A DNA stretch of 64,000 nucleotides. Origin: Streptomyces ambofaciens ATCC 23877. GTDB lineage: Bacteria > Actinomycetota > Actinomycetes > Streptomycetales > Streptomycetaceae. The notes under the pieces are model-generated. The model saw only the letters and a program-made list of their open reading frames with translations, did no database searches and was not told where the DNA came from. Of the stretch, positions 4,918 through 14,366 are shown in pieces. The stretch spans positions 2,033,001-2,097,000 of the forward strand of contig NZ_CP012382.1 of NCBI RefSeq assembly GCF_001267885.1, read 5' to 3'. Numbering within the stretch: the stretch's first letter is position 1; each line of letters opens with the position of its first letter. Made by a program: the position numbers and the translations under genes.

Positions 4918-5137
4918 GCCGCATTCGGGCACCCGCGCCGCCCGTTCCCACTTCCCGGCCCGCTGCGTTCCAGGTCCGCGACGGGCGCCCGGCGACCGGA
5001 ACGGGCACGATCGGGCAGTATCGGGTCCGCAACAGGCCTGGTCAGTGCCGCACGGCCGCTGTAGAACTTCCCCCATGGGTCCGACGGGCCCGAACGGGCA
5101 GGGACACGGCGACGAGGCGGTGAGGCAGGTGTTCGGC

Positions 5138-5908
5138 ATGAGCACGAGGACGGCGGAGGAACGCCAGCGCGAGATCGTGCGGATCGCCCGCGCCACCGGC
5201 TCGGTCGACGTCACCGCGCTCGCGGCCGACCTGGGCGTCGCGAAGGAGACCGTACGACGGGACCTGCGCGCCCTGGAGGACCACGGTCTGGTCCGCCGCA
5301 CCCACGGCGGCGCCTACCCCGTGGAGAGCGCCGGCTTCGAGACCACGCTCGCCTTCCGCGCCACCAGCCACGTGCCCGAGAAGCGCCGGATCGCCGCCGC
5401 GGCGGCCGAGCTGCTCGGCGACGCGGAGACGGTCTTCGTCGACGAGGGCTTCACCCCCCGGCTCATCGCCGAGGCCCTGCCCCGCGACCGGCCGCTGACC
5501 GTGGTCACCGCGTCCCTTCCGGTCGCGGGCGCCCTCGCCGAGACCGGCGACACCTCCGTCCTGCTGCTCGGCGGGCGGGTCCGCTCGGGCACCCTCGCCA
5601 CCGTCGACCACTGGACGACGAAGATGCTGGCCGGCTTCGTCATCGACCTGGCGTACATCGGCGCCAACGGCATCTCCCGCGAACACGGCCTCACCACCCC
5701 CGACCCGGCGGTCAGCGAGGTCAAGGCCCAGGCGATCCGCGCCGCCCGCCGCACCGTGTTCGCGGGCACGCACACCAAGTTCGGGGCGGTCAGCTTCTGC
5801 CGGTTCGCGGACGTCGGCGCCCTGGACACGATCGTCACCAGCACCCTGCTGCCCACGGCCGAGGCCCACCGCTACTCGCTGCTCGGGCCGCAGGTCGTCC
5901 GCGTCTGA
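5138..5908 (+). CDS. DeoR-family sugar-responsive repressor
   Basis: The protein is about 256 residues with an N-terminal winged helix (REIVRIARATGSVDVTALAADLGVA-type, with KETVRRDLRALEDHGLVRRTHGG-like recognition region) followed by a DeoR effector domain of the ISOCOT type. DeoR regulators of this form sense sugar phosphates. The open frame extends upstream to 5045, but the ATG at 5138 (MSTRTAEERQ) fits the family N-terminus. It precedes the sugar ABC operon in the same direction with an 86-bp gap and probably controls it. Whether it also controls kdgD/udh is unknown. Confidence 0.85.
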   Translation: MSTRTAEERQREIVRIARATGSVDVTALAADLGVAKETVRRDLRALEDHGLVRRTHGGAYPVESAGFETTLAFRATSHVPEKRRIAAAAAELLGDAETVFVDEGFTPRLIAEALPRDRPLTVVTASLPVAGALAETGDTSVLLLGGRVRSGTLATVDHWTTKMLAGFVIDLAYIGANGISREHGLTTPDPAVSEVKAQAIRAARRTVFAGTHTKFGAVSFCRFADVGALDTIVTSTLLPTAEAHRYSLLGPQVVRV

Positions 5909-12339: not shown

Positions 12340-13923
12340 TCAGGCCGCCCAGGGCCAGTCGGCGTCCCGGGCCGCCTCCAGCAGGGGAACCATCCGGAAG
12401 GCGGCGTCCGAGAGCCCGCCGAAGGCGTGCCGGTTGTCCTTGCCGGACGGGCCGTGGCCCGCCCGGTACCCGGCGAGGTTCCAGGTGTAGACCGGGACGC
12501 GCTCCGGAACCTGCTCGGTCGGGTCGCCGTGCCGGTGGTACGCGTACTGCTCGTCGGTGACGATCAGCACCCGGTCGTGCTTGCGGTAGTGCCGCCGGAC
12601 CGCCTCGGTCGTGTCGGTGCCGCCCAGGTCGCCGAAGCGCTCCAGGACCTTCAGCACCGACTCGCCCTTGCGGTACTCCACACGGTTGCTCGACGTACCG
12701 AACTCGACGAGGTCCGCGTCGGCCGCCCGCAGCGCGAGCGCCGTGCCGAAGACCGCCGCCGCGTCGGCCCGGTTGAGTTCCGAGCGGTCCGACAGCCGCG
12801 AGTAGAACATCGAGCCCGAGCGGTCCACGAGGACCAGCGTCCGGCCGGGCAGCGCGGGCACGTTGGCGAGCGAGTGGCCGAGCGCCTGCTCCAGCGGGTA
12901 GGACCAGCGCAGCGAGGGCGCGTGCCGGTACGCGGCGAGGTAGCGGAAGGGGAACTGCCGCGAGCGCGCCACCTGCTCCGGGTCGCTGATCCGCGCCGCC
13001 ACCCGGGCCGCGACCTCGTCCGAGACGCCGGCCTCGTCGAAATTGCGCAGGTTGCGGGTCAGAGCCATCGCCCCCATGGACGGGATCACGGACTCCCAGG
13101 CCGCCTTGTCCATCGGCCCCTGGAGCCAGCCCGCCAGCATCTCCCAGGTGATGCCCGCCGCCGCGAGCCGTTCGGCGCCGTCGGGCGCGGTGACGACCGC
13201 CCGCCGCTGCTCGACGGGCAACGCCATCAGCTCGCGGTGCGCGGTCAGGACACCGTTCGAGGCGGGCGGCACCGCGCTGTCCGGGTGGTACCTGCGGTCG
13301 AGCGCGTACTGGAACAGTTCGCCCTGCCACGGCTTGTCCGGATCCGGCGCCGCGTGCACCAGGTTGAGGATGTCGCCGAAACGGTAGCCCTTGGCCGCGG
13401 AGTCGTACTTCAGGAGCGACCTGCCGTGGTAGAGCCGCCGCACGGCGTCGGCGATCCCCCGCTTGACCGGCTTGGGCACGGCACGGCCGTACGTCGCCGT
13501 CCAGTAGGCGAGCAGCTCGCCGGGCTCGTCGGGCCGCTGGAGGACGGAGGCGACGACCTGCCGGTTGGCGGGACCGTCGGTGGCGCCGGCGTCGAGGCGG
13601 GCCTTGACGTACTCGGCGGCTCCGACGATCGAGGCGGTGCGCAGGTTGCCCTCACCGCGCAGCCAGCCGAGCAGACCGGCCGTCCAGGACGGGTCGGCGA
13701 CGGCGAGCTCGCGCACCAGCTCGGTGAAGCGGTCGTCGCGGGCCGCGCCGGTCTCGTAGAACGTCTGCTGGGACACGAAGTCGGTGACCGCCAGGAGGAA
13801 GAGTTCCGAGCGCGGGTCGCGCTCGCGGCCCCGGCCGCCCTCGTAGGTGCGCAGTACGCGGCCCGTCGACGTCACCCGCGAGGTGGGCCGCGCCTTCGCC
13901 GTCCTGGTGTTGAAACGCGCCAT
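12340..13923 (-). CDS. rsr: Rsr: TROVE/Ro60-like RNA-binding protein
   Basis: A 527-residue protein. The N-terminal two-thirds match the TROVE domain, a HEAT-repeat ring that binds misfolded RNA inside and Y RNA on its outer face. The C-terminal third is a von Willebrand A domain with MIDAS motif DRSGSM at residues 367-372 and a later TDEQ. Bacterial Rsr partners with 3' exonucleases such as PNPase in RNA decay and rRNA maturation after stress. GGGGG lies about nine bases before the ATG. Two Y-RNA-like genes lie immediately upstream on the same strand, which strongly supports the assignment. Confidence 0.92.
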   Translation of the reverse strand: MARFNTRTAKARPTSRVTSTGRVLRTYEGGRGRERDPRSELFLLAVTDFVSQQTFYETGAARDDRFTELVRELAVADPSWTAGLLGWLRGEGNLRTASIVGAAEYVKARLDAGATDGPANRQVVASVLQRPDEPGELLAYWTATYGRAVPKPVKRGIADAVRRLYHGRSLLKYDSAAKGYRFGDILNLVHAAPDPDKPWQGELFQYALDRRYHPDSAVPPASNGVLTAHRELMALPVEQRRAVVTAPDGAERLAAAGITWEMLAGWLQGPMDKAAWESVIPSMGAMALTRNLRNFDEAGVSDEVAARVAARISDPEQVARSRQFPFRYLAAYRHAPSLRWSYPLEQALGHSLANVPALPGRTLVLVDRSGSMFYSRLSDRSELNRADAAAVFGTALALRAADADLVEFGTSSNRVEYRKGESVLKVLERFGDLGGTDTTEAVRRHYRKHDRVLIVTDEQYAYHRHGDPTEQVPERVPVYTWNLAGYRAGHGPSGKDNRHAFGGLSDAAFRMVPLLEAARDADWPWAA

Positions 13924-13970
13924 CGTGAATTCCCCCGAATTCCTTTCGGTGGAAGGCGCGCCAGAAGGAG

Positions 13971-14116
13971 GGTGCCCGAGGTCGGGATCGGCGGCGGAGA
14001 AAGTCGGACGTGTCTTCCGTTTTCACCACGTCGGCCCGGAGCCGACGACGGGATTCGAACCCGCACCCCTTTCGGGATCCGATCCAGAAGTATCCGCTGC
14101 CTGCGCACCGGGCACC
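13971..14116 (-). ncRNA. yrlA2: YrlA-type Y RNA 2, permuted tRNA-like module
   Basis: On the minus strand, a T-arm (stem GCGGG/CCCGT, loop TTCGAAT) at 14064-14048 is followed by an acceptor-like 7-bp stem CGTCGGC/GCCGACG (14047-14041 with 14035-14029) closed by loop TCCGG. Then comes a small D-arm-like hairpin (GTG/CAC with GG in the loop). T-arm, acceptor, D-arm is the reverse of tRNA order. GGTGCGCAGGCAG at 14109-14097 resembles the Ro-binding sequence of Y RNAs. A terminal helix GGTGCCCG (14116-14109) with CGGGCACC (13978-13971) defines approximate ends. The 3' end is 47 bases from rsr. Confidence 0.72.
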
Positions 14117-14198
14117 ACCGTCTGTAGCGCCTCCCGAGATCCATACGGCTGCGGCGTCTCTTTCGATGGCACGAAGTAGCCGCGGCCCACGCACCGGG

Positions 14199-14354
14199 AG
14201 GTGCATGACGTTCTGGTGTCCAGAGTTCAGGTCGGCGGAACCGACAAGGTGCTCTCACCCCTGAGCTACACCGGCGCGTGGTGCCGGTGACGGGACTCGA
14301 ACCCGTGGCCGCCCCATTATCAGTGGAAGTAGGTCCTGCCTTCGCACCTGGACG
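14199..14354 (-). ncRNA. yrlA1: YrlA-type Y RNA 1, permuted tRNA-like module
   Basis: The T-arm ACGGG/CCCGT with loop TTCGAGT lies at 14306-14290. A perfect 7-bp acceptor stem follows (CACCGGC 14289-14283 with GCCGGTG 14275-14269), its closing loop beginning ACCA like a tRNA 3' end. Next are TA and a D-arm GCTC/GAGC with loop AGGGGTGA (14266-14251). The order is a circular permutation of tRNA. GGTGCGAAGGCAGG at 14348-14335 closely matches the animal Y RNA Ro-binding site as I recall it. AGGTGC (14349-14344) pairs with GCACCT (14204-14199) to form a terminal helix. Ends are approximate. Confidence 0.75.
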
Positions 14355-14360
14355 TGCATC

Positions 14361-14366
14361 ACTCTA
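14361..14366 (-). promoter_or_regulatory. candidate -10 element for Y RNA 1
   Basis: The minus-strand hexamer TAGAGT matches the streptomycete -10 consensus. It would place the start site at about 14354, within a few bases of the terminal helix of Y RNA 1. No good -35 hexamer is seen at normal spacing, so confidence is limited. Confidence 0.45.

Follow-up and report, generated by a model that had tools for sequence, protein, structure and literature searches.

The window, a 64,000-nucleotide stretch of Streptomyces ambofaciens ATCC 23877 DNA, carries three Y RNA units in a row on the minus strand at 14366-13924, the region upstream of rsr, in the order A, B, C. When its parts are modelled in tRNA order, unit A appears to be a complete tRNA that has been permuted, the chain being cut between positions 26 and 27, and it includes a closed anticodon arm. 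From the positions of the units, their covarying structures, their conservation and their linkage to rsr we infer, with a probability of roughly two in three, that three Y RNAs are transcribed from one promoter, processed out of one precursor ahead of the rsr mRNA and bound by Rsr, and that their tRNA modules dock tRNA-handling proteins as partners onto Ro60. A preliminary description of this sequence had recognised a pair of RNAs; the locus holds a trio, with a unit devoid of a tRNA module (B, 14129-14203) lying between A and C. Two features look new and were absent from that description: A has a closed anticodon arm, and C a variable arm.

The rsr locus and its upstream units

The rsr gene (12340..13923, minus strand) encodes a bacterial Ro60 orthologue of 527 aa, which matched Pfam TROVE with 49.2 bits (cut-off 23) and TROVE chains of the PDB with an E-value of 4e-30. 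The earlier placing of the units directly before a Ro60-like gene was hereby confirmed, and an encoding site beside the Ro60/Rsr gene is a trait that the window units share with YrlA-type RNAs. A perfect inverted repeat located by pattern search, GAATTCGGGGGAATTC (13927..13942, minus strand), contains the presumed Shine-Dalgarno sequence of rsr; the same type of pattern stands immediately 5' of the rsr start in 57 of 81 loci, and the repeat could be a regulatory hairpin. GGTGCG elements are situated at -425, -272 and -186 relative to the rsr start of the window, and a T-arm follows the first and the third only. Motif positions upstream of rsr displayed the same three-motif layout in many other Streptomyces loci. 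The two paralogous minus-strand units with a T-arm, a closed 7-bp acceptor-like stem and a D-arm had been correctly identified and correspond to A (14216-14355) and C (13970-14117), both of which contain GGTGCG(A/C)AGGCAG, as reported.

Counting weak and partial matches, 110 of 199 Streptomyces genomes gave an Rsr match at E 0.001 or better. Upstream regions were taken from 102 loci (30 + 72), fragments and the near-full-length Rsr match of genome G032 being left out, and the rsr start was located in 96 of these, with six loci remaining without one. Sequence patterns recovered A in 53 of the 96 loci, B in 75 and C in 63; all three were found together in 36 loci and none in 15, and many Streptomyces loci are without A, B or C. 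To cut out the units, the patterns required GGTGCG together with portions of the terminal helices, plus a near-match to the T-arm in the case of C, so the conservation of GGTGCG, of the terminal helices and of the T-arm of C is partly built in. GGTGCG was first seen at like positions in a motif survey of the loci, before most of the motif was required by the cutting patterns. Of the 15 loci without any unit, 11 belong to a second rsr paralogue and the other four to a third Rsr group. A B-type model match was found upstream of the second paralogue in 11 of 11 loci (10 tested together, then L080); this paralogue (L079-L086, L089, L091, L092) is 67-72% identical to the window rsr. In the third group (L098-L101) the first upstream unit, inspected by eye, has T-arm-like and acceptor-like hairpins without a D-arm, and is perhaps an intermediate form.

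A -10-like box, TAGAGT (14361..14366, minus strand), is located before A, the only unit in the window to be preceded by a promoter-like box. In 51 of the 53 orthologues TANNGT keeps a constant distance from A, and in the remaining two it is 1-2 nt off; the looser TANNNT was found within 22 nt upstream of none of the 63 C units and of 14 of the 75 B units. Judged from its position, TAGAGT would direct transcription from about 14353, where the terminal helix of A begins. Spacers between units have a median length of 12 nt. A box at A only, combined with spacers of this length, fits one promoter and a processed precursor; A, B and C would accordingly be transcribed from the single promoter before A and cut from one precursor.

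Unit A and its anticodon arm

Covariation resolved A (14216..14355; all coordinates in this section are on the minus strand) into a terminal helix, a Ro60-type internal loop, a second helix and a permuted tRNA module with an anticodon arm. The terminal helix pairs GTCCAG with CTGGAC (14353-14348 with 14223-14218), which corrects the GGTGC/GCACC helix proposed earlier for both copies; those letters do occur in C, contained in GGTGCCCG/CGGGCACC. The 5' motif of the presumed Ro60-binding stem of A, GGUGCGAAGGC, spans 14338..14348, and its GGTGCG is found in the alignments of A, B and C. Within the module, a 5-nt variable loop (14307-14311) precedes a T-arm of 5 bp with the loop UUCGAGU (14290..14306; 5/5 pairs in 53/53 loci), which is followed by an acceptor-like 7-bp stem closed by a 7-nt loop (14269..14289; 7/7 pairs in 52/53 loci) and a D-arm, GCUC...GAGC (14251..14266). 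The T-loop contains GTTCRA in 53/53 A units and 63/63 C units, a near-match having been required when C was cut, and the D-loop contains GG in 53/53 A units. Three pairs of the acceptor-like stem were changed on both sides, and its closing loop measured 4-9 nt across the A orthologues. The D-arm gives no covariation evidence because its stem, required by the parser, is invariant in the 53 sequences. Read in tRNA order, A has canonical lengths throughout: a 7-bp acceptor, UA at positions 8-9, a 4-bp D-arm, position 26, a 5-bp anticodon stem with a 7-nt loop, a 5-nt variable loop, and a 5-bp T-arm with a 7-nt loop.

The 53 orthologues were aligned with MAFFT in a structure-free manner (alignment A1). 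The named structure pairs in 97.2% of cells of this alignment and 13 of its 36 pairs showed changes on both sides; shuffles yielded a mean of 2.9, none of 500 reached 13, and slid versions gave at most 5. A1 covariation is no independent support for GGTGCG or for those portions of the terminal helix that the cutting patterns asked for. RNAalifold recovered the helices of A unaided, minus one pair of the second helix and plus two extra pairs. The cloverleaf was not obtained by folding the single sequence, for which the minimum free energy was -55.9 kcal/mol vs -47.7 kcal/mol for the proposed fold, and the stretch containing A folded with a z of -0.41 vs shuffles.

The closed anticodon arm of A, UUCCA-CUGAUAA-UGGGG (14312..14328), has GAU at the anticodon position (14321-14319) and was assigned by pairing and positional tests. 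All five pairs form in 50 of 53 loci, and compensation in the stem was observed in A1 as CG to GC in five loci and AU to GC in two. The anticodon loop of the window A is identical to the loop of tRNA-Ile(GAU) of the same genome. Triplets at the anticodon position of the 53 loci were CAU (20), GAU (13), CUU (9), GUU (4), UCU (3), CCU (2), CAA (1) and UUU (1), two of them misread since L052 (6-nt loop) and L067 (arm deleted) were kept in the arm and covariation counts. The triplet differs between close relatives.

Three bases of the anticodon stem of A are supplied by the UUC of UACUUC, and because this motif is shared by B and C only the two inner pairs were tested. In a length-based test, units were selected by the distance from UUC to the T-stem alone (21 or 22 nt), with 11 units lacking a recognised T-loop or UACUUC-like motif left out. 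Both inner pairs form in 80 of the 87 length-selected units, U33 being present in 84 and A38 in 81, as against both pairs in 5 of 54 units at the same positions of other length classes. Thirty-five of the length-selected units lie outside set A, in other Streptomyces, other genera, phages and plasmids, and form both pairs in 29 cases; they came mostly from matches to the covariance model R1, which holds the arm, and so are not a blind sample. A blinder pattern was therefore constructed from UACUUC, CUnnnAA, one G and the T-arm, all fixed, with the two inner stem pairs left free, and it occurred in at least 119 genome and at least 120 viral stretches. Of the matches listed, 112 of 115 distinct genome sequences and 112 of 116 distinct viral ones have Watson-Crick bases at both free pairs, with 11 stem types in the former and 15 in the latter. 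Position 34 is A in 1/115 genome and 8/116 viral matches listed, and position 36 is U in 89/115 and 105/116 respectively; U33 and A37-A38, being fixed by this pattern, carry no weight here. Downstream of the pattern an acceptor-like hairpin was present in 98/115 genome and 85/116 viral matches among those listed, and such a hairpin was also found at 927 of 3000 random places.

These counts bear on whether the arm could be a structural side effect, that is, a small hairpin that merely resembles an anticodon arm. Part of the stem does derive from the UACUUC motif common to B and C, and the minimum free energy fold of the single sequence differs. Against this, the loop has seven bases, U33 and A38 are present in most units, the arm lies 4-5 nt before the T-arm, and many compensated stem types were encountered in several phyla, which together make a side effect unlikely.

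When the A units were re-ordered, ARAGORN called a tRNA in 53/53, compared with 20 of 1060 whole shuffles; in native order it called no tRNA in the window, and 7/53 A and 3/63 C units. The re-ordered module was rejected as evidence for the anticodon arm: shuffled arms also pass (1010/1060), so what the test supports is confined to the D, T and acceptor parts. A single tRNA isotype as donor of A was likewise discarded, the best matches of the 53 units among the 40 anticodon kinds of the window's genome being spread over His (19), Thr (15), Met (14) and Arg (5), with identities mostly around 70-80%. With all tRNA parts of A at canonical lengths, A and C might be regarded as permuted tRNA genes processed into working tRNAs. 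A CCA after the acceptor 3' strand, a hallmark of such genes, is not conserved, ACCA occurring in 8 of 53 closing loops; the ACCA-containing loop that had been singled out earlier as a notable trait is consequently not a conserved one. Furthermore, a Ro60-type stem separates the D-arm from the anticodon arm, and the anticodon changes between close relatives as described above. Processing into working tRNAs is on these grounds hardly credible.

Units C and B in relation to known Y RNAs

C (13970..14117, minus strand) comprises the terminal helix GGUGCCCG/CGGGCACC and, with a leucine-like D-arm, a tRNA body of YrlA type that is open at the anticodon position. Two models not trained on the window C detected it (locus L001), R1 with 71.2 bits (E 5.4e-16) and R3 with 109.5 bits (E 1.2e-22). 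The construction of a new covariance model had been proposed at the outset; R3, built from C units of other species with the window sequence excluded, also found A, at E 1.9e-14. At the anticodon position C has a stem that was missed in the preliminary description. Of its 63 units, 39 + 21 were aligned, L078, L093 and L096 being left out. In the 39 loci C has a YrlA-type body in which the helix at the anticodon position encloses the T-arm, the acceptor hairpin and the D-arm; 17 of 38 pairs were changed on both sides, and an RNAalifold run was in support. The 21 loci that include the window (class II) have a leucine-like D-arm and, in most, a variable-arm hairpin, and 15 of 43 pairs were changed on both sides, a figure reached by 0 of 500 shuffles. 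In class II all five pairs of the variable-arm hairpin (UCCCGAAAGGGGU, 14065..14077, minus strand) had changes on both sides, yet only 73.2% of its cells are paired. In the leucine-like D-arm (14010..14026, minus strand) GUG...CAC replaces GCG...CGC, with one compensated pair in 1/21 sequences.

Compared with the tRNAs of the window's own genome, 18 of the 21 class II modules had tRNA-Leu as best match; for the window's own module Leu was ahead of Pro by just 23.5 vs 23.0, and shuffled modules reached 21.5. The C units of L057 and L071 were closest to the fMet (initiator) tRNA. C modules match different tRNAs, so the tRNA type of the module is not constant among related species, having changed either by exchange with tRNA genes or by drift.

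B (14129..14203, minus strand) is formed by a terminal helix, CCUCCCG/CGGGAGG, and a second helix, without a tRNA module. The window B scored 81.8 bits against model R2, in which the window sequence is included. Covariation is weak, with 4 of 16 pairs changed and 30 of 500 shuffles reaching this value, and the covariation among orthologues suggested earlier as a check thus supports A and C well and B weakly. Folding of the single sequence prefers another fold (-35.7 vs -26.7 kcal/mol), and the stretch holding B and C gave a more stable fold than its shuffles (z -2.33). In L028, L030 and L039 B is reduced to about 35 nt, approximately the terminal helix and the motif.

At gathering thresholds Rfam gave no match in the window. 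The YrlA covariance search (RF02553), run at a loose threshold, did match both copies, the first with 28.3 bits (E 4.7e-4) and the second with 19.6 bits (E 0.16), values below the gathering score of 69. The Deinococcus locus beside rsr (L261) reached 49.6 bits, likewise under the gathering score, and the Rfam cut-off therefore seemingly does not define the biological family. We therefore treat A and C as variant YrlA-type RNAs, and not as Rfam members. The initial assignment to YrlA-type Y RNAs next to rsr hence stands as regards the family, with sub-threshold Rfam matches and a trio in place of a pair.

The 5' and 3' ends of the units lie in a long stem with conserved loop motifs, less clearly in B, the motif having been partly required by the patterns, and the module of A and C, absent from B, is ordered T-arm, acceptor hairpin, D-arm. 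The units resemble YrlA of Salmonella and Deinococcus in adjoining rsr, in the terminal stem with its internal loop and second stem, and in this order of arms. The Rfam YrlA consensus also has a helix that encloses the three arms at the anticodon position, as in C, and the plan of stem, internal loop and module in the window copies is, by eye, that of Deinococcus L261. The window units depart from YrlA in that A possesses an additional closed anticodon arm, a variable-arm hairpin is present in the window C, and three units stand in a row. The order of arms described earlier is real, and is already known for YrlA from the available portions of PMC8394870 and PMC11472068, one or other of which also notes that YrlA is circularly permuted relative to tRNA. 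Those portions of the literature, which lie outside the primary YrlA papers, describe D, T and acceptor arms only and mention no anticodon arm in any Y RNA. Both additions to the YrlA-like plan, in A the closed anticodon arm and in C the variable arm, may be new, and we regard their novelty as uncertain.

B is similar to YrlB in possessing two stems only, differing in its position between two tRNA-like units; to our knowledge YrlB has no tRNA module. The yrlB gene is part of an rsr-yrlBA-rtcBA operon (PMC7790460, available portion). RtcB was absent among the seven window proteins scanned with Pfam. GGUGCGAAGG resembles GGUCCGAAGG, the Ro60-binding strand of animal Y RNAs; we know of no tRNA module in animal Y RNAs, and up to an E of 5 Rfam listed no Y_RNA match in the window. 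Algae and archaea have circularly permuted tRNA genes, which share with the window modules a 3' half placed before the 5' half, whereas here there is no conserved CCA and the module is embedded in a Y RNA stem. Permuted tmRNA (RF04321) has in common a closed acceptor region after the T-arm, and the window scored 17.7 bits vs a gathering score of 47.

Distribution, origin and proposed function

TROVE was found in 54 of 394 genomes of the host's class. In loci of other genera the number of units varies, with arrays of up to five (L115, L118). An R1 match was present at the free-pair pattern in 79 of the 80 genome loci examined out of at least 119, 76 of them full length and the exception being the archaeal L314, and in 73 of the 80 viral loci examined out of at least 120. 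A home-made TROVE profile detected a TROVE-like ORF in 59/80 genome and 66/80 viral loci among the matches listed; in a control of 19 pieces (the window in 8, and 11 loci away from rsr) its one hit was the window rsr itself. Again among the matches listed, the ORF lay at most 1 kb from the pattern in 58/59 genome and 62/66 viral cases, and on the same strand in 59 and 65. By record title, 25 of the 80 genome loci among the matches listed are non-Actinomycetota, several of them metagenome-assembled; they include Paenibacillus, Cohnella, Ruminococcus, Desulfosporosinus, Pontibacter, Parachryseolinea, Hyphomonadaceae, Bradyrhizobium, Akkermansiaceae and Acidobacteriaceae, among others. In an Akkermansiaceae locus (L310:3586-5330) a closed-arm Y RNA-like unit (5070-5209) was observed inside a run of tRNA matches.

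Full-length model matches away from rsr were obtained in several Streptomyces genomes, including two in G196, a genome without an Rsr match. Seven closed-arm Y RNA-like units of Streptomyces away from rsr were inspected (L144, L145, L146, L147, L148, L150, L152; L144 lies in G196); they have a glutamate-like D-arm, judged by eye, and a 4-nt variable loop. No common neighbour gene was seen in an inspection of their surroundings. Such units are relevant to the alternative that the three structures form a cis-acting leader, in which Rsr would regulate its own synthesis by binding to its 5' UTR, free RNAs being irrelevant. The structures are on the same strand as rsr and directly upstream of it, behind one promoter-like box and followed by the Shine-Dalgarno inverted repeat of 57/81 loci, and pattern matches elsewhere are mostly within 1 kb of a TROVE-like ORF on the same strand, among the matches listed. 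The full-length matches away from rsr, with two in the genome devoid of an Rsr match (of which L144 was examined), and the arrays of variable number, up to five units, argue to the contrary and render a cis-acting leader distinctly unlikely.

The number of R1 matches per genome (at least 192 of 199 genomes) was rejected as a measure of Y RNA frequency, many being short matches (model 28-106) to a tandem tRNA pair. Eleven loci with short matches were examined; the four from Streptomyces were all pairs of tRNA-Asn genes, 4-5 nt apart, the junction of which R1 matches. One of these four pairs, with its genes 4 nt apart and its junction matched by the A-module model, occurs in the host's own genome outside the window (L133:659-810). 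The junction of tandem tRNAs reads anticodon arm, T-arm, acceptor 3', acceptor 5', D-arm, which is the order of A, and one unit (L116:1501) was closest to tRNA-Asn, with 66/86 identities. An origin by tandem duplication is therefore plausible; the permuted order would then have arisen at the junction of two tandem tRNA genes.

Ro-like genes were present in phages of Streptomyces, Gordonia and Arthrobacter, and three of those retrieved sit among tRNA genes. The unit of Gordonia phage VanLee (L255:1202-1341) has a closed arm with the loop CUUCUAA and is partly annotated as tRNA-Arg(tct). A Y RNA-like unit of Streptomyces phage Alone3 (L254:1268-1415) is partly annotated as tRNA-Ser(gct). In Streptomyces phage Kela (L258:531-3165) a YrlA-like RNA, an RNA ligase and a Ro-like gene follow each other in a row; this RNA scored 36.3 bits, below the Rfam cut-off. 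None of 16 closed-arm pattern loci passed the Rfam YrlA threshold, and part of one (L331) was called tRNA by Rfam.

Taken beyond the window, the occurrence of the pattern in bacteria and viruses tentatively suggests a widespread, hitherto unrecognised class of Y RNAs that would carry a whole permuted tRNA with a readable anticodon arm and would thereby recruit to Ro60 enzymes that read the arm, namely t6A synthase, anticodon nucleases or repair ligases; we put the chances of this broader proposal at somewhat below even. The anticodon arms of the class would mostly be of the ANN-decoding type, with U36-A37, a t6A determinant. A related and rather doubtful possibility is that A acts as a decoy or sensor for anticodon-cleaving nucleases, the arm serving as bait and its cleavage altering the Ro60 particle. 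The arm is kept while its triplets change within a steady U33/A38 frame, and Ro genes are located among phage tRNA genes and, in Kela, beside an RNA ligase. The available part of PMC8628891 refers to VapC tRNases and to the cleavage of tRNA in Streptomyces coelicolor, and a role of YrlA as competitive inhibitor of an anticodon nuclease is suggested in that of PMC7790460, where, on the other hand, Salmonella YrlA is uncut by the nuclease studied. Against the decoy reading, the U36 of most loops suggests a constraint other than the target of a single nuclease.

In the preferred reading, of three processed Y RNAs that dock proteins onto Ro60, the internal loop of each unit, GGUGCGnnGGC with GAnCUC, would bind Rsr. 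B, with its two helices only, could act as a plain Ro60 partner or gate, and C would present, like YrlA, a tRNA body with an opening at the anticodon position. The Y RNA stem is known to bind Rsr, and the tRNA-like part PNPase; according to the available portion of PMC8394870, YrlA tethers Rsr to PNPase and is a substrate of DusA and TruB. The tRNA modules probably dock tRNA-handling proteins onto Ro60, PNPase among them by analogy with Deinococcus, and the anticodon arm of A would let it also be read by arm-recognising factors, for example modification enzymes or anticodon nucleases.

RNAs of this kind can be mislabelled or missed by tRNA finders and Rfam, as exemplified by the annotated tRNAs of VanLee and Alone3 and by the Rfam tRNA match in L331. 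A full tRNA, anticodon arm included, mounted on a Ro60 stem points to tRNA-specific partners and may provide a handle on the role of Ro60 in bacteria.
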